Source of the DNA: Bdellovibrionota bacterium
GTDB lineage: Bacteria > Bdellovibrionota > Bdellovibrionia > Bdellovibrionales > JAEYZS01
NCBI GenBank assembly: GCA_963169515.1
Contig: CAUJEF010000031.1
Span: forward strand, 1 to 32,083
Length of the DNA: 32,083 nt
Reading direction: 5' to 3'
Position numbers and translations under genes: made by a program. The notes beneath the pieces are model-generated. The model was given only the letters and a program-made list of their open reading frames with translations. It did not search any database and had not been told where the DNA came from. This document shows, one piece after another, positions 2,671-13,417 of the stretch (within the stretch, counting starts at the first letter, position 1; each line of letters begins with the position of its first letter).

Positions 2671-3606
2671 TTAATATTCGATAAGGAATCCACCGTTTAT
2701 TACATTGTCTGAGAAATCGAATTTTTTGTTGAGGCCTGTAATAATTCGGTATTCGGCTACAAAATACATATGATTAATACCCTCTTCGCGATCAAGAACG
2801 ATCATTGTTTGCGGATTAATCCAATCCAATAGTAAAGCTAAACCTCCAGCTATGTGCCACGCCAAAGCTCCGCCATACTTGAAGTCTCCGTCATCACGAA
2901 GTTCGCCAAAGGTAAAATAGTCTATTCCACCTTCTCCATAAGGAACAATGATTTGATTATGAAAATAATCCGCCCGATAAGTGATCGCCACGTTGTTTGG
3001 TAAAATGTAAAAACTGTATTTTTCTAAGGGCTGTTTATCTGGAGTATCATTTGGAGATCCTTGCTCCCACCGGCCATTGCCCTGGGCATAGGATAGACCG
3101 CTTCCGACTTTGAGAGCTAATTTCCCAGCGCTTTTAAAAAATTGCCATTCCCAATCTCCAAATAAGGTAATTGCGGAACCGCCGCCATAAATATCCTCGT
3201 ACGAATACCCAGCAGCACTGTTGTAGAGATTAGAGAGTGTCAGGCTGCCAAATCGAAATGAAAAGGCGTTGTGCTGCGGCGATCGTTTTACCTGGTATTG
3301 ATACTCATTTTTTTTTGTGATCCTAAAAAGTCCCTTTTCTTTATTAAGCTGCTTAACTCGAGATTCTTCGGGCAGCCGGCGCTTCTGCTGTTTCCAGCGG
3401 GGAACAAAGGGCTTAGACTCTGGATATTCATCAGTCAGTAGTCGTTCGTCATCAAGGGTCGCTTCAGCTTCGCGAGCTGTGTTAAAGGGAGGTTCGTTGG
3501 GGGCTTCTTCGTACTGATCAAGGGAGCGTGCCATGTTTAAGTCCGCCGAAGTAATTTCTGCTAAAACAGGCTGTGCGATAAGTACAATCAAAAATGCTGC
3601 AATCAT
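2671..3606 (-). CDS. Putative outer-membrane beta-barrel protein
   Basis: A 311-residue exported protein. Residues 1-16 form a signal peptide with probable cleavage after VLA. A charged, proline-rich linker (about 17-110) follows, with many E, R and K residues. From about residue 112 onward, alternating hydrophobic/polar strands with many Y, G and F end in an aromatic terminal residue (Y), as in outer-membrane barrels. It resembles the lipid-embedded barrel families annotated in Myxococcus and Bdellovibrio, but I cannot name one with certainty. Its ATG overlaps the stop of the upstream CFI-box gene by four bases (ATGA), so the two proteins are probably made together and may act together on the surface. 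Exact function unknown. Confidence 0.75.
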   Translation of the reverse strand: MIAAFLIVLIAQPVLAEITSADLNMARSLDQYEEAPNEPPFNTAREAEATLDDERLLTDEYPESKPFVPRWKQQKRRLPEESRVKQLNKEKGLFRITKKNEYQYQVKRSPQHNAFSFRFGSLTLSNLYNSAAGYSYEDIYGGGSAITLFGDWEWQFFKSAGKLALKVGSGLSYAQGNGRWEQGSPNDTPDKQPLEKYSFYILPNNVAITYRADYFHNQIIVPYGEGGIDYFTFGELRDDGDFKYGGALAWHIAGGLALLLDWINPQTMIVLDREEGINHMYFVAEYRIITGLNKKFDFSDNVINGGFLIEY

Positions 3607-4892
3607 ATTGCTGCCTTGTTATCTTTATGAATTTTTAGGGCGATCAGAATAGCGCTGAATAAAGAAATCAAAACCAAATTTGCAGCAACAGTTCCCATAT
3701 TGAGATACATCCAAGCAAGTCCCCAGAGCGGAAAGAGAATCATTCTTGCGCCAGCTCGTAAGTAGTCATTTTCGGCAATCACCTTTGCCAAAGGGGGTGA
3801 GTTTTCATAATAAAATTTTACAAACTTTTTCCCGATAAATGATGTTCTTAGGAATTGATCTCGGAAATCCCGAAATGTTTGGACGTGTGGGTCTAATATG
3901 GATCCGAATGCTGCGGTTGCAATAAAACAATTTTGCTTGTCCTCTAGAATTCCAAAAACGTCGTCCGGCATTGCTGTGTGCGTGCCGGCGACACAGGCAG
4001 TTGTGAAAAGCCCAATATTTTCGGCGTCATCTTTTGCGGCCATCCGAAAAACATAAGTAATATCGTTGGTCAGGTGTCTGATTCGATTATCCGTTAATTC
4101 ACCATTGGCATTTACATCAGTAAAATATGGAGAACTTTCAGCCGTGGTATTATTCACAACTGATGCAAAATTGCTGCAATCCCCAGGGTCTTGTGCATAA
4201 AAGGCTCCGATCTGCTGGATGTCAGCGGCCCCGTGTTCGGGCGAATAGCCTGCGGTTACAGAATAGCTTTCGATGGATTTTAAATAGACCTTTTCATCTC
4301 CAGGATAAGCGACAAAAGATTCAATACTTGCCGTGATGGCCGCACCTGCAAGATCATCAAGCCCTGCGACAACAACATAAAATTGTTTTTTGTCGTCCAA
4401 GGTTCCGCAGGTCCCGCTTTTGGCAACACCAGCTTCCAATGTAAATTGCTGAGAAAGCGTGTATGCATCCCCACAGCTCGTAAGCGCCGGCGAACCCACT
4501 TTGTTACAGAGCTCCTGCCAAGGCACTTGTATCGTAACAGTGTTACCCGCAACGTAGCCGTTGACGGGAGTGCCAACGGGTGTAGAGGTAGTTCCGGAAA
4601 CGACAACACAGGCGGCTCCGCTTTCAGTAGATTTAAAAGTAACAGATAATAAAAGCCCGTCTGTAACCCGCCGATTATTACACGCGGTAAGCCCGCCAGC
4701 ACAGTTGTTGCAGACGCTAGTAGAGCTTGGGCAGGAGCCACCAGTTTGAGAACCGGCAATACCGCCGTAGACAGTGACATTGCCGCCTGTGTCTGTAACA
4801 CGGGAAGCTGTGCGTGTGTCTACCGAGAAATCTGAAATAGTCGCAAAACTAGAGATTGAATAAAAAAGCACAACAAAGACTACTGATTTCAT
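3603..4892 (-). CDS. Exported protein with CFI-box C-terminal signal
   Basis: A 429-residue exported protein of unknown function. A signal peptide spans about residues 1-17. The mature part has a cysteine-rich patch (C54, C61, C64, C71) and beta-rich sequence up to about 315, resembling tandem Ig/fibronectin-like modules. The C-terminus carries the CFI-box: NCFIATAAFGS from residue 321, then a conserved RDFRDQFL and YYENSPPLA stretch, and a hydrophobic helix (about 383-419) with a lysine-containing tail. This arrangement matches the CFI-box-CTERM sorting or anchoring region known from Bdellovibrio and other delta-proteobacteria. GGAGG lies 6 bases before the ATG. It is translationally coupled to the downstream barrel gene. 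Confidence 0.82.
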   Translation of the reverse strand: MKSVVFVVLFYSISSFATISDFSVDTRTASRVTDTGGNVTVYGGIAGSQTGGSCPSSTSVCNNCAGGLTACNNRRVTDGLLLSVTFKSTESGAACVVVSGTTSTPVGTPVNGYVAGNTVTIQVPWQELCNKVGSPALTSCGDAYTLSQQFTLEAGVAKSGTCGTLDDKKQFYVVVAGLDDLAGAAITASIESFVAYPGDEKVYLKSIESYSVTAGYSPEHGAADIQQIGAFYAQDPGDCSNFASVVNNTTAESSPYFTDVNANGELTDNRIRHLTNDITYVFRMAAKDDAENIGLFTTACVAGTHTAMPDDVFGILEDKQNCFIATAAFGSILDPHVQTFRDFRDQFLRTSFIGKKFVKFYYENSPPLAKVIAENDYLRAGARMILFPLWGLAWMYLNMGTVAANLVLISLFSAILIALKIHKDNKAAI

Positions 4893-7718: not shown

Positions 7719-8531
7719 ATGTACAAGCGCTTGACCTACTTTTTTTTGGCCTTTTTCCTGGGGCTACTTTTAGCTCCAATGGCCATTGCTACGCCTTCAG
7801 AATTTTCGTGGAGAGAGCAGGACAGCCGCCGCGGCTATGTGAGCGTCATTGATCAAGCAGATGATACCACAGGAACCCCACTTGTTTTTATCGATAATCC
7901 TGACGCGAATGAGCGCACGTTGCGGGAAAAAATTTTCGATGAGCGACTGACGAAAGAATTCACGTTGAAGTATCAGGAAAAATTTGGCCGCACTGAGGCT
8001 GAAACATTTTATACGCGCAGTAATGTTTTTGAATACCTGAATGTTCAAGGAAGAGAATATTCTCAAGAACAATACTACGATGAACAGAAATCGTTCGGAA
8101 CCTATATGGTTCGTCGAACCGTAGAATACCATATCGATTCGAAGGGACGAGATATCGCCCCAGCGGTGATTGAAACAAAGGAAAAATTGCAAAATGTGAA
8201 TGTCGGTATTGGGAAGAATATCAAGATCAAAGCAAAATATTCCATTGCAGCCAATGATTTTGGCGTTCGGATCGAAAACCCAATAATTGATTACCGGATG
8301 ACCATACCGAGCCATTTATCTGGCACGATAGTGAGCGTCGGTAAAGGAATCGGGCACCTGTATTATATGGAATCGTATTATTACTGTAGTACTGGTGCTA
8401 TTTCTTTAATCGGGCGGCGCAAATTGACTGAACTGGCCTCTGTGAGTATTACGTTGACTCCAAACTACTGGCGTCCAGAAGAAAGGGTTCGAGAGAAATT
8501 TGGTTTGGCGGGACTGACATGGGGATTTTAA
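7719..8531 (+). CDS. Exported protein of unknown function
   Basis: A 270-residue exported protein not recognised as any family. Residues 1-25 form a strong signal peptide (MYKRL, then a long hydrophobic run, probable cleavage after AIA). The middle (about 60-130) is highly charged and tyrosine/glutamate-rich; the C-terminal half looks beta-rich. The ATG at 7719 is preferred over an in-frame TTG at 7701, which would put six extra residues before the signal peptide. The stop overlaps the start of the next gene by 13 bases, so it is co-translated with the exported kinase and is the obvious candidate for its partner, substrate or regulator. Confidence 0.75.
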   Translation: MYKRLTYFFLAFFLGLLLAPMAIATPSEFSWREQDSRRGYVSVIDQADDTTGTPLVFIDNPDANERTLREKIFDERLTKEFTLKYQEKFGRTEAETFYTRSNVFEYLNVQGREYSQEQYYDEQKSFGTYMVRRTVEYHIDSKGRDIAPAVIETKEKLQNVNVGIGKNIKIKAKYSIAANDFGVRIENPIIDYRMTIPSHLSGTIVSVGKGIGHLYYMESYYYCSTGAISLIGRRKLTELASVSITLTPNYWRPEERVREKFGLAGLTWGF

Positions 8532-9460
8532 AAAATCTTCTTTTTTTGGGAGTTTTATTTTGTGCTGCTGATCTTTATGCATTTCCCGAAGTGGGAGATG
8601 TAGTCAGAGTCTCCGATGGGCTAAATTACAAGATTGTTTCAGAGTTGGGATCTGGTGCTTACGGGCGCGTTTTTAAAGCCCAAATGAATACACGCCAAGA
8701 CAGCGAAATTGCAATTAAAATTTTTTTTTCAAACAAAGACATTGAATCTATTTTTTCTAATTATGAATTCGTTAGGGACAAGGCGCATGATGCCCCCTAT
8801 TTTGTGAAAATTTATTCCACTTATCGGGCGGTGAACGTAAATGGCCAAACATTTCCAATAATTGCCATGGAAAAGTTGGATAAGGATCTTTGGCAGCTAT
8901 CTAAAGACTTAAATTTAGAACAGCGGATCGAAATTGCTCCAAAAATTATTGAGGACATTTTGCGTGCGATTGCATTTTTAGCAAAACACAAACGGGCGCA
9001 CTCGGATATACGCATGGAAAACATTATGTGTCGTGGATCGGGACAGTTCCTGTTGAATGACTTTGATCTTTCCGGTCCTTCAGAACCTACGATTTTAGAT
9101 TATTTTTTGGACCCAGAACTTGTGGATGAGCGGCCGGGAATCGAACGAGATGTATATAACCTGGGTCAGGCGATGTTGGGTTTTCTTTTTGGCGAGGCTT
9201 ATTTGGATCGCGATCTTGAACACGCAGTTCAGGCATTTGAACGTACTCGCTCAAAATTGGAATCACGCTATCTTTTGAGGTTTGACTTGTTAAGGGCTTA
9301 CATAACAGGGTTTCTTCACGCAGTTCCGCAGGTAAGAATCAGTTCCGCGTTGGAAGAATTTGATCCGCGAAATGCAAACAAGGGGATAGGCAGACTTATC
9401 GATTATACTTACCTTTTTAGAATGACAAATTTAACCTGTCCGGACCTTTTCCCGCTCTAA
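8519..9460 (+). CDS. Protein kinase-like protein with signal peptide
   Basis: A 313-residue protein combining an export signal (residues about 1-21, MGILKN plus a hydrophobic run) with a Ser/Thr-type protein kinase domain. Landmarks in order: glycine loop GSGAYGRVFKA (44-54); ATP-anchoring K67 in AIK; likely helix-C glutamate E83; catalytic loop H161-S-D163 with N168; metal-binding D181-F-D (DFG replaced by DFD); a PE motif (199-200); and the helix-F stretch RDVYNLG with D211. The usual catalytic-loop lysine is arginine R165. All core catalytic residues remain, so activity is plausible. A kinase routed out of the cytoplasm would meet little ATP in the periplasm, which suggests secretion into another cell, retention, or a non-kinase role. 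It is overlapped by the gene in front. Confidence 0.82.
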   Translation: MGILKNLLFLGVLFCAADLYAFPEVGDVVRVSDGLNYKIVSELGSGAYGRVFKAQMNTRQDSEIAIKIFFSNKDIESIFSNYEFVRDKAHDAPYFVKIYSTYRAVNVNGQTFPIIAMEKLDKDLWQLSKDLNLEQRIEIAPKIIEDILRAIAFLAKHKRAHSDIRMENIMCRGSGQFLLNDFDLSGPSEPTILDYFLDPELVDERPGIERDVYNLGQAMLGFLFGEAYLDRDLEHAVQAFERTRSKLESRYLLRFDLLRAYITGFLHAVPQVRISSALEEFDPRNANKGIGRLIDYTYLFRMTNLTCPDLFPL

Positions 9461-9503: not shown

Positions 9504-9532
9504 GGTAGGTGAAGCGCTATGCGGGAGGTTGC

Positions 9533-10039
9533 ATGAGGGATTTAGATTGGATTAAGGATCTAGTCGAAGCCGAGCAGAAGATGGAAGAAAGCGGTATGGT
9601 GGATTTCTCCACAGGCTATAGCCCCGATGAGTCGCTTAAAAATGAAACCATTAAATTTCTAACTCAAATAAAAGAATTATTTATTGATTTTTCAACTGTG
9701 TTCAATAAATACCGCGGCCTTGCTGTTGGTGGTGTTAAAATTTACGGCATTTCCAAAACCCAAGCGGACTTTATGTTGTTTCGCAATGGGTTTAAATTAT
9801 TTTTTATTATGGAAAAACCTGGGGCTATAACTATTCGCACCCAGTTTCATGGTGCGGACTATACTCCCGGCGCAACAATGACAGCGCCACAAATTGATAG
9901 CCTGGGACCAGACGACCATATCGAAGCCCGCTGGGGTGCATTTGGTGCCATTATATGGACCCATCAAGAGCTCGAAGTTCGTCCTGAAAATTTAGTGAAG
10001 TTTCATTTTACTAAATTTGTTCGAGAAAGTTCTAAGTAA
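9533..10039 (+). CDS. Conserved-looking cytoplasmic protein, unknown
   Basis: A 168-residue soluble protein with no signal peptide or membrane helix and no family that I recognise. The N-terminal third is acidic and helical (residues 1-60); the rest mixes beta-like strands with glycines (around GLAVGGVKIYG) and ends in a basic tail. The ATG at 9533 is chosen because GGGAGG lies 5 bases upstream; a GTG at 9509 would read through that site. It follows the exported kinase gene by 72 bases and ends four bases from the convergent gene. Codon use looks native. Confidence 0.72.
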   Translation: MRDLDWIKDLVEAEQKMEESGMVDFSTGYSPDESLKNETIKFLTQIKELFIDFSTVFNKYRGLAVGGVKIYGISKTQADFMLFRNGFKLFFIMEKPGAITIRTQFHGADYTPGATMTAPQIDSLGPDDHIEARWGAFGAIIWTHQELEVRPENLVKFHFTKFVRESSK

Positions 10040-10579: not shown

Positions 10580-13417
10580 TTACAAACCCAGTGTGGAATA
10601 AATGACAGAGCTGCCGTTTGCGCCTGGGTGCGTCCCTTGCGCAAATCCTAGCTTGAATTGCATTGGAGCGTGGTAAAAACCCGTAATGTCGAAAACAATT
10701 TCTGTCCCATAACTGGAAAATACATTGCGCCCACGGTTCCGAATAGCGTCGTTGTGTTCATTGAAATAAAAGCCATTGAAATGCAGGAAATCCCCAAACA
10801 AGCTCATGCTGATTTTTTGTAAAAACAGGGGTGCAGTTCCGAAGCCTTTGTATGGATAGGCGAGTGGGAATCGATATTCCGCTGTAGCTTCGTATGTCTG
10901 CCAGCCAACAAACTCGCCACTTGGAAATCCGCGCATAACGAATGGGGAATCCCCCACCTGAATGACTGGTGTGGCTGTGACGGTCGATGATCCAAGCAAA
11001 ACGCTTCGATTCACTTTTGTGTAGTAAGCTTGTCCACGAAGCATAAATACGTTATTAGGTGGAAGCCATTTTGTGTGATAGTAAGTTCCATCAAAAATCC
11101 CTTTGCCATGTTCAGTGCGGGTGGCGTTTTGAAGAAATTGTGTGTAATTCAAAAAAAACTTTTTTCCAACCGGAGAGATTTGATATCCTTTTTTCGAAGT
11201 GTCATCGTAGCTGATTCCCACGGTTGGGCCGTAATAATCAAAATCTCTGTGCAGAGTTGGGTTATTGCTGCTCTTTAAAATCGGATCGTCGATTAATTCG
11301 TAAGATATACCCAGTAATGCGCGCCACTTGTTATTGAGACCCCAAATATAATTACTATATGTGATAGATCCACCACGGTTCCCAGCAGTGCTACCGTATG
11401 CCGGAGAGTAAACATTGAGATCGTATGCAAGAAATGTCAGCGTTCCATATCCTGTGTTTTGCAAATACAACGCAGAAAAACTAGGTTCTTGGGATCGACT
11501 GTCGTATTCTGCGCTTAGAGAAAGCGCTTGTAATCCAAGCGGATCCATTGCCTCAACATTTGCGCCCACAATAAACCCGTCAGTTAAAATCAAAAACCCG
11601 GGCAGCCAATATTGCGGCATCAAATAACTTGTTGAGGAGTAAGGATAAGTTTTTGATTTAACCTTAACCGCTTTTGAATTAATTTCTGCTGGGAAATCTT
11701 TGGCAAGATCGCTTTCCACCTTTGGTGTTCCAACGACGACAGAAGGAACCTTCACGCGCTCTAACCCGAATCCTCGAGAAGATAGGTGGCTAATGTAAAG
11801 ATTATTTGTTCTTGAGTCTAATTCGCCATTTAAAACTTTTGTTTTTGTATTCGTGAGAGCCTTTACATTGGAAAATGTTCTGTCCGTAAGGAATAGATTA
11901 TCGACACCGGACTTATTATTTGTAAAAATAATTCCCTGCTTTGTTACGACAGGAAAGCGTGATCCTGAATATTGAGGCAGCACAGTATTAACAGCTTGGT
12001 TTTCGATATCCAAAACTTTCAAATATTCGTTTCCATCCAGGGCGCGTTCGGAAAAAACTATTTTATTGTCATTCAAAAAGGATGGTTGGCTGACTCGGAC
12101 TTGGAATTCAGGCTTATACAGAACCTTTAGGTTGGCTCCTTTTGCAGATACTGTGGAAATAGTTGTGGAGCCTGGGCCAGATTGAATAAACACGATGGTA
12201 TTTCCGTCAGGTGATACAGAGGGCTCTTGGGCCCGCAAACCCTTAGTAATTCTGTCTTTCTTTTTATTTTTTAAATTGTAAACGTATAAATCGTAAAATG
12301 TATGGTAACGGTCAAAATCATCAGTTTGATCAAATACAATTTTTTCTGAATCAGGGAACCAACCAACGCGAGTCGTGTCTGTCGTAATTAACAGTTGTTT
12401 TGGCCTTCCGCCAAAGTAATTTTCTTTTCTTTCGATCAATTGAAGTGTTGTGTCCCCAGTGTCAATGGCAGTTACGAACGCCAGTTTGGATTGATCTGGA
12501 CTGAGCGTTGGGCTGAAGCTCATAACCCCAGACTTTACAGGAATTTCTGTCCCACGAGTTACGACTCCCCCTTTTTCAATTTCATCAAGCTGTTGTTTTG
12601 CCATACTCGCGTAGCGTCCATAGGCATCTGTTAAGATACTTTGAAAATTTGCTTTGAAGTCGTCTTTGGCCGGACCTTCGATGAACCAGGGCATTCGATG
12701 TGAATAGCGTTGGTTCCAGCGTCCTATGATATCAATATCCTTTTCTTGAACAATATGGTGCCACAAAAGTGCGCCATAGTAGTAAGGTCGCTGTCCGCGA
12801 GGCCAGGTGGGAATAGATACCTCGTTGATGCGCGAAATATCCTCGCTCCCCCATGTTCCATCGACGACTTCCGATCGAATCATTGCGGCATAGTCAGCAG
12901 ATCGCAGGCGTCCATGGGTTGTCAGTCGGCTTTCAATTTCAACGGCCAGTCCCTCCAAATACCAACGAGGCAAAAACATATTTGGTTTTATTATGGAACC
13001 AAATATCCAACGCATGGGGGTCCAAAACCCTCCGGCGGGCTGCATATTCAAGATGTGGGTGTACTCATGAACAATCAATTCTTGTGACCAGACACTGTAG
13101 TTATCAATCGTCGATAGCCCGGACGGGAGCACAGGGAATCCGTAAATTAGTGGTCGTGGGACGCTTGTTGCGGCACCGTTTGCTAAGTCCGTTGTGCTAT
13201 CTATGACGATCACCGTTTTCGCCGGAGCTTCCCCAAATATTTTTTCTAACACGTTGTAGGAATATTCAGCTTGAGTTGCATATTCTATCGCCACAAATTT
13301 TTGTCTTGCGTCATATATGACTTCAAAGTGATCCGTTTCAATGACTTGATAATCGATCCTAGGGTCGATTGCCCATAGATGCACAGAGAACAGAGATAAT
13401 AAAAATGTTAAAAACAT
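10580..13417 (-). CDS. Metallopeptidase/TolB-propeller/outer-membrane barrel fusion
   Basis: A 945-residue three-part envelope protein. A signal peptide spans residues 1-16. Residues about 20-270 form a gluzincin-type (peptidase MA-like) zinc protease: HEYTH at 117-121 and the third ligand E155 in WYLEG. Residues about 280-580 are a TolB-like beta-propeller with repeated SPDG/SPDQ and W/F-P-D-S-E motifs. Residues about 600-945 look like an outer-membrane beta-barrel of the surface-antigen type, with strands ending in an aromatic/leucine terminus. GGAG lies 7 bases before the ATG. It is divergent from pal, whose usual neighbour is tolB, so the propeller may work near Pal. It is likely anchored in the outer membrane with the protease facing the periplasm or surface. 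Confidence 0.85.
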   Translation of the reverse strand: MFLTFLLSLFSVHLWAIDPRIDYQVIETDHFEVIYDARQKFVAIEYATQAEYSYNVLEKIFGEAPAKTVIVIDSTTDLANGAATSVPRPLIYGFPVLPSGLSTIDNYSVWSQELIVHEYTHILNMQPAGGFWTPMRWIFGSIIKPNMFLPRWYLEGLAVEIESRLTTHGRLRSADYAAMIRSEVVDGTWGSEDISRINEVSIPTWPRGQRPYYYGALLWHHIVQEKDIDIIGRWNQRYSHRMPWFIEGPAKDDFKANFQSILTDAYGRYASMAKQQLDEIEKGGVVTRGTEIPVKSGVMSFSPTLSPDQSKLAFVTAIDTGDTTLQLIERKENYFGGRPKQLLITTDTTRVGWFPDSEKIVFDQTDDFDRYHTFYDLYVYNLKNKKKDRITKGLRAQEPSVSPDGNTIVFIQSGPGSTTISTVSAKGANLKVLYKPEFQVRVSQPSFLNDNKIVFSERALDGNEYLKVLDIENQAVNTVLPQYSGSRFPVVTKQGIIFTNNKSGVDNLFLTDRTFSNVKALTNTKTKVLNGELDSRTNNLYISHLSSRGFGLERVKVPSVVVGTPKVESDLAKDFPAEINSKAVKVKSKTYPYSSTSYLMPQYWLPGFLILTDGFIVGANVEAMDPLGLQALSLSAEYDSRSQEPSFSALYLQNTGYGTLTFLAYDLNVYSPAYGSTAGNRGGSITYSNYIWGLNNKWRALLGISYELIDDPILKSSNNPTLHRDFDYYGPTVGISYDDTSKKGYQISPVGKKFFLNYTQFLQNATRTEHGKGIFDGTYYHTKWLPPNNVFMLRGQAYYTKVNRSVLLGSSTVTATPVIQVGDSPFVMRGFPSGEFVGWQTYEATAEYRFPLAYPYKGFGTAPLFLQKISMSLFGDFLHFNGFYFNEHNDAIRNRGRNVFSSYGTEIVFDITGFYHAPMQFKLGFAQGTHPGANGSSVIYSTLGL

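Follow-up and report, generated by a model that had tools for sequence, protein, structure and literature searches.

The window analysed here, a 32,083-nt stretch of DNA from a Bdellovibrionota bacterium, carries two overlapping genes whose products both start with predicted signal peptides, and one of these products is a eukaryotic-like protein kinase (Table 1). ATP is scarce in the periplasm, which counts against the activity of an exported kinase there, and the protein kinases of bacteria are expected in compartments that contain ATP. The locus raises two questions, namely, whether the kinase could be a working enzyme outside its own cytoplasm, and whether it forms a functional pair with the protein encoded upstream, as the original prediction held. 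The coordinates and lengths given there (270 and 313 residues, 13-base overlap) proved to be exact. The reading frame of the kinase contains no start earlier than ATG 8519, and, because this start overlaps the stop of the upstream gene, translation of the two genes is probably coupled. The overlap does not by itself demonstrate a functional pair.

Table 1. Positions of the two overlapping genes, their predicted features and the following gene in the window
Feature	Position	Strand	Remark
Upstream exported protein gene	7719..8531	+	ATG 7719 to stop 8531, 270 aa
Exported eukaryotic-like protein kinase gene	8519..9460	+	ATG 8519 to stop 9460, 313 aa
Overlap of both reading frames, 13 bases	8519..8531	+	would couple their translation
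Signal peptide of the upstream protein, predicted	7719..7790	+	cleavage between AIA and TPS; from sequence features
Signal peptide of the kinase, predicted	8519..8581	+	cleavage between LYA and FP; same layout in the UBA2316/UBA2351 kinases (between SVYA and VK)
Kinase domain, about residues 36-280	8624..9358	+	Pfam, AlphaFold2, Foldseek
Glycine loop G44-S-G46-A-Y-G49	8648..8665	+	G46 invariant in the kinase alignment
K67, ATP-binding lysine of strand 3	8717..8719	+	invariant in 34 kinases
Catalytic loop H161-S-D163-I-R165-M-E-N168	8999..9022	+	H161, D163 and N168 invariant
D181-F182-D183, DFD replacing DFG	9059..9067	+	D181 invariant; DFD common to the UBA2316/UBA2351 kinases
Next gene	9509..10039	+	homology favours ATG at 9533; neighbours the upstream gene in relatives too

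The kinase matches the Pfam family Pkinase (PF00069) with an E-value of 1.4e-16 and 61.2 bits, compared with a curated cut-off of 31.7. An AlphaFold2 model based on an alignment of 34 sequences (pLDDT 81.2, pTM 0.80) retained the kinase fold, and the best 50 Foldseek matches of this model were all protein kinases, with the solved structure of PknB at the top (E 2.4e-11). All eight residues that are invariant in the 34 aligned kinases (G46, K67, H161, D163, N168, D181, D211, and R273) are kept. Among them, D163 and N168 are the catalytic Asp and Asn, D181 is the metal Asp, D211 the αF Asp, and R273 the Arg of the C-lobe. Further motif residues are G44-x-G46-x-x-G49 and P199-E200. As had been predicted, the glycine loop, K67, D163, N168, and D181 are present, with the DFG motif changed to DFD and the lysine of the catalytic loop changed to arginine. 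A decayed kinase gene was ruled out, as there is no frameshift and the key residues are all present.

Several features would nevertheless fit an exported pseudokinase, that is, a protein whose fold serves as a periplasmic or surface domain that binds ligands or proteins without catalysis. The periplasm is expected to be devoid of ATP, and the motifs DFD, HSD, and R165 differ from those of usual kinases. In HSD, the arginine of the HRD motif is absent, so that control by phosphorylation of the activation loop appears unlikely, and the APE motif reads DPE (P199, E200). The αC glutamate is uncertain: E83 is a candidate, with the spacing found in PKA and within a predicted helix (75-87), but in the multiple alignment the glutamate column falls on residues other than E83, and the glutamate is absent from its usual place in two distant homologs from the metagenome-assembled genomes (MAGs) UBA2316 and UBA2351. 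However, the main ATP- and metal-binding residues are kept both in the window kinase and in these homologs, which are only about 29% identical to it. The catalytic loop, D-I-R-x-x-N, has the Src-type arginine R165 where lysine is usual; Src-type kinases have D-L-R-x-x-N as their catalytic loop, and an arginine at +2 is normal in such loops. The glycine of DFG is usual but not strictly defining, and DFD is the natural motif of the active human kinases MNK1/2 and an accepted variant (PMC3326643, PMC1821047). In crystal structures of MNK1/2, a DFD-out conformation is seen, in which the phenylalanine occupies the ATP site (PMC3326643, PMC1821047). Judged from the motifs, the DFD and Lys-to-Arg changes are mild and not marks of decay. 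We give the pseudokinase reading some weight but consider it rather unlikely.

Signal peptides were called with our own feature score, which evaluates a positive n-region, a hydrophobic core, and a small residue at −1. The N-terminus of the kinase, MGILKNLLFLGVLFCAADLYA followed by FPE, contains all three, with a Leu at −3 that is acceptable although not the best residue, and its most hydrophobic 11-residue window scores 2.79. The N-terminus of the upstream protein, MYKRLTYFFLAFFLGLLLAPMAIA followed by TPS, scores 2.87, and members of its protein family generally have a hydrophobic N-terminus. Both proteins thus begin with signal-peptide-like N-termini, in agreement with the prediction. The value for the kinase is equal in strength to those of the clear signal peptides among the window genes (2.2-3.1), whereas the maximum among 26 ordinary kinases of related genomes is 1.61, and, when N-termini of identical composition were randomised, 0.9% attained the kinase score. 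The charges around the hydrophobic core, with K5 before it and D18, E24, and D27 after it, correspond to an N-in/C-out orientation and would place the kinase domain outside. There is no transmembrane anchor after the kinase domain.

Alternatively, the kinase might be cytoplasmic, its N-terminus being no export signal, either because translation starts at an inner GTG (8591) or because the hydrophobic segment is a reverse anchor. ATP is located in the cytoplasm, the other kinases of the source genome are of the cytoplasmic type, and the GTG (V25) does lie after the signal and ahead of the kinase domain. Against this, no ribosome-binding sequence is visible 5′ of the GTG, whereas ATG 8519 is positioned for coupling; the charges are N-in/C-out and the core is short; and the signal peptide is kept at the same place in the distant homologs. 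Altogether, we regard a cytoplasmic location as improbable.

These homologs, the two best matches of the kinase in the phylum, are proteins of 782-784 aa from the Bdellovibrionaceae MAGs UBA2316 and UBA2351, encoded at a different locus from that of the window kinase (L077, 5974-8340, and L078, 3641-6007). Although they were retrieved by the kinase domain alone, both start with a signal peptide (MIRFFWNV...SVYA, followed by VK) and both carry DFD. They resemble the window kinase in the signal peptide located just before the kinase domain, in the motifs HxDI[KR]xENI and DFD, and in an identity of about 29% over the shared part, but differ from it in a long C-terminal region, in their locus, and in that the upstream gene is not nearby. 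In a phylogenetic tree, the three exported DFD kinases form one clade with a support of 96/97; long branches join at this point. The recurrence of export and DFD in two distant homologs makes a chance origin of the N-terminus less likely, and the same N-terminus and motif in such divergent proteins are the strongest evidence for real export. Neither the 369 genomes of the phylum nor a collection of 85,000 genomes yielded another exported member with a profile of the three kinases. A degenerate-pattern scan of the 85,000 genomes yielded nothing with the single sequence and, with the profile, the UBA2316/UBA2351 kinases together with kinases that lack the shared features; the pattern scan of viral contigs yielded nothing. 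Taken together, the sequences point to exported DFD kinases as a lineage that is rare, with three known members from one draft genome each. In the two longer proteins, the C-terminal ~450 residues have no Pfam match, and a gene for a 429-residue protein precedes the kinase gene in both genomes.

The upstream gene shows a very different distribution. It is present in 64 of the 141 genomes of the order, including the source genome, but no copy was detected in g7, a large genus. The protein has no Pfam match, and no convincing match was obtained for 29 family members. Its structural model (pLDDT 74.8, pTM 0.44) contains the signal peptide, a helical domain (68-158), and nine antiparallel strands (159-268), and the protein ends in a terminal Phe. 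Foldseek matches to the barrels of VDAC, OMPLA, and Tom40 were weak, with a best E-value of 0.07, so that an outer-membrane-barrel-like envelope protein is a suggestion made with low confidence. Across the family (window 7719-8531; relatives L007-L035), Y40, F89, G90, E136, H138, K154, Y174, N187, P188, and G265 are invariant.

Wherever it was inspected, the upstream gene is found at a single conserved locus, beside phospholipid-synthesis-like and Tol-Pal genes. Nine longer stretches show, on one side and divergent from the upstream gene, truA, genes for an outer-membrane protein and a CFI-box protein, asd, and pssA-like and CTP-transferase-like genes, and, on the other side, a gene of the 9509 type (in several of the stretches), a gene of the 10044 type, a TolB-like gene, pal, tsaD, and ksgA. 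In the genome G069, which belongs to the same family, the gene order is identical to that of the window except that the kinase is missing. A spacer of 72 nt separates the kinase stop from the next gene here and the upstream-gene stop from the next gene in G069; the two spacers share no sequence likeness, and their equal length is probably due to chance. Within the window, the CFI-box-CTERM protein gene (3603-4892) adjoins a Bd0486-type outer-membrane barrel gene (2671-3606), and the two are conserved together in relatives. A gene for a 945-residue protein with TolB-like propeller repeats (10580-13417) adjoins an OmpA/Pal gene and a gene for a CpoB-like "predatory vesicle lipoprotein" of the Bd0635 type, in a variant Tol-Pal cluster.

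A conserved two-gene system is rejected by these comparisons, since the upstream gene lacks an adjacent kinase in all 29 relatives inspected and since, conversely, exported homologs of the kinase occur without the partner in the UBA2316/UBA2351 genomes, whose genus gave no match to the upstream gene. A kinase gene lacking the partner is what the original prediction had itself named as refuting it. The claimed partnership with the upstream protein thus did not hold, whereas the other part of the proposal, an exported kinase-fold protein with intact ATP-binding residues in a Bdellovibrionota genome, stands. A recent, lineage-specific pairing, in which the kinase would modify, or be gated by, the outer-membrane-like protein, fits the 13-base overlap and the two export signals but, with 63 other genomes having the upstream gene, is very improbable. 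No close ortholog of the kinase was found in the order or among the 369 genomes of the phylum, and its gene may be an addition in one lineage or a remnant that was lost elsewhere.

An origin from a phage, a plasmid, or another mobile element was rejected: there were no phage matches, plasmids contributed only generic kinases, and flanking repeats were not convincing. The G + C content of the kinase gene (0.408; GC3, 0.379) is inside the range of the window genes, which also argues against a mobile origin. A kinase of a defence system was likewise rejected, as the PADLOC matches (mad6 and PD-T4-6), both of low score, covered the kinase domain only and the scanned adjacent genes were not defence-like. 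Promoter-like sites occurred at chance level. On the Ewingella americana plasmid pB61a (L070, 3007-4511), a kinase gene and a gene for a PP2C-type phosphatase overlap next to phage lysis genes.

The reading that we prefer, although we see its chances as evenly balanced, is that of a eukaryotic-like Ser/Thr kinase which is exported via Sec, is probably competent in catalysis, and works outside the cytoplasm of the producing cell, perhaps in prey. The gene would have been inserted at a conserved envelope-gene locus, or would have survived there in this lineage only; the signal peptide would be cleaved upon export via Sec, and sequence and fold suggest that the enzyme would be active in phosphotransfer. 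The source genome encodes the type II secretin GspD (554 bits), the sole secretion component that was searched for. In Bdellovibrio bacteriovorus, NanoLuc with a Sec signal peptide was released into the medium, and entry of Bd0468-mCherry into the bdelloplast was reported (PMC12622784). The secretin and the release of this reporter are consistent with passage of the kinase across the outer membrane. Dxr, IspH, and HMG-CoA reductase had no match at E 1e-5 in the source genome (G000), which is 96% complete; both routes to isoprenoid precursors may be absent, which suggests dependence on other cells. We infer that the organism is a predator. Together, the secretin, the reporter release, and the suggested dependence on other cells imply that an exported kinase could meet ATP in damaged prey, and it would use the ATP of such a prey or host cell. 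DFD perhaps keeps the enzyme off until its target is met, as in the MNK kinases. The wider proposal, that a small Bdellovibrionota lineage possesses active, Sec-exported DFD kinases that are released into prey, phosphorylate targets there at the expense of the prey's ATP, and are held in a DFD-out off-state until they are in place, is more speculative, and we consider it doubtful as a whole.

Three divergent proteins from relatives of Bdellovibrio combine an export signal with a kinase domain whose ATP site is intact. Such a kinase would, if active in prey, be a concrete candidate for the action of a predator on prey proteins. No Sec-exported eukaryotic-like kinase of Bdellovibrionota was found in the literature, which is weak evidence, since subscription journals lay mostly outside the search. 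What appears to be new is a small DFD lineage whose eukaryotic-like kinases are exported, the kinase family itself being already known. With the Hanks-type bacterial Ser/Thr kinases (PknB/PrkC, PF00069), the window kinase shares the fold and the catalytic residues, PknB being its best solved-structure match, but their own kinase domain is cytoplasmic, whereas the window kinase has an N-terminal export signal, no later anchor, and DFD. MNK1 and MNK2 are eukaryotic and lack an export signal. These human kinases likewise have DFD in place of DFG (PMC3326643, PMC1821047), but are not among the best sequence matches of the window kinase. Translocated effector kinases, such as Legionella LegK, and the FIKK kinases of Plasmodium have a kinase domain that acts in another cell (PMC9950578, PMC7116245). 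The homology seen between them and the window kinase is confined to the kinase domain, and delivery of the known bacterial effector kinases has been described via type III/IV secretion and not via Sec (PMC9950578). If the preferred reading is true, the window kinase would be a Sec-routed counterpart to these type III/IV effector kinases.
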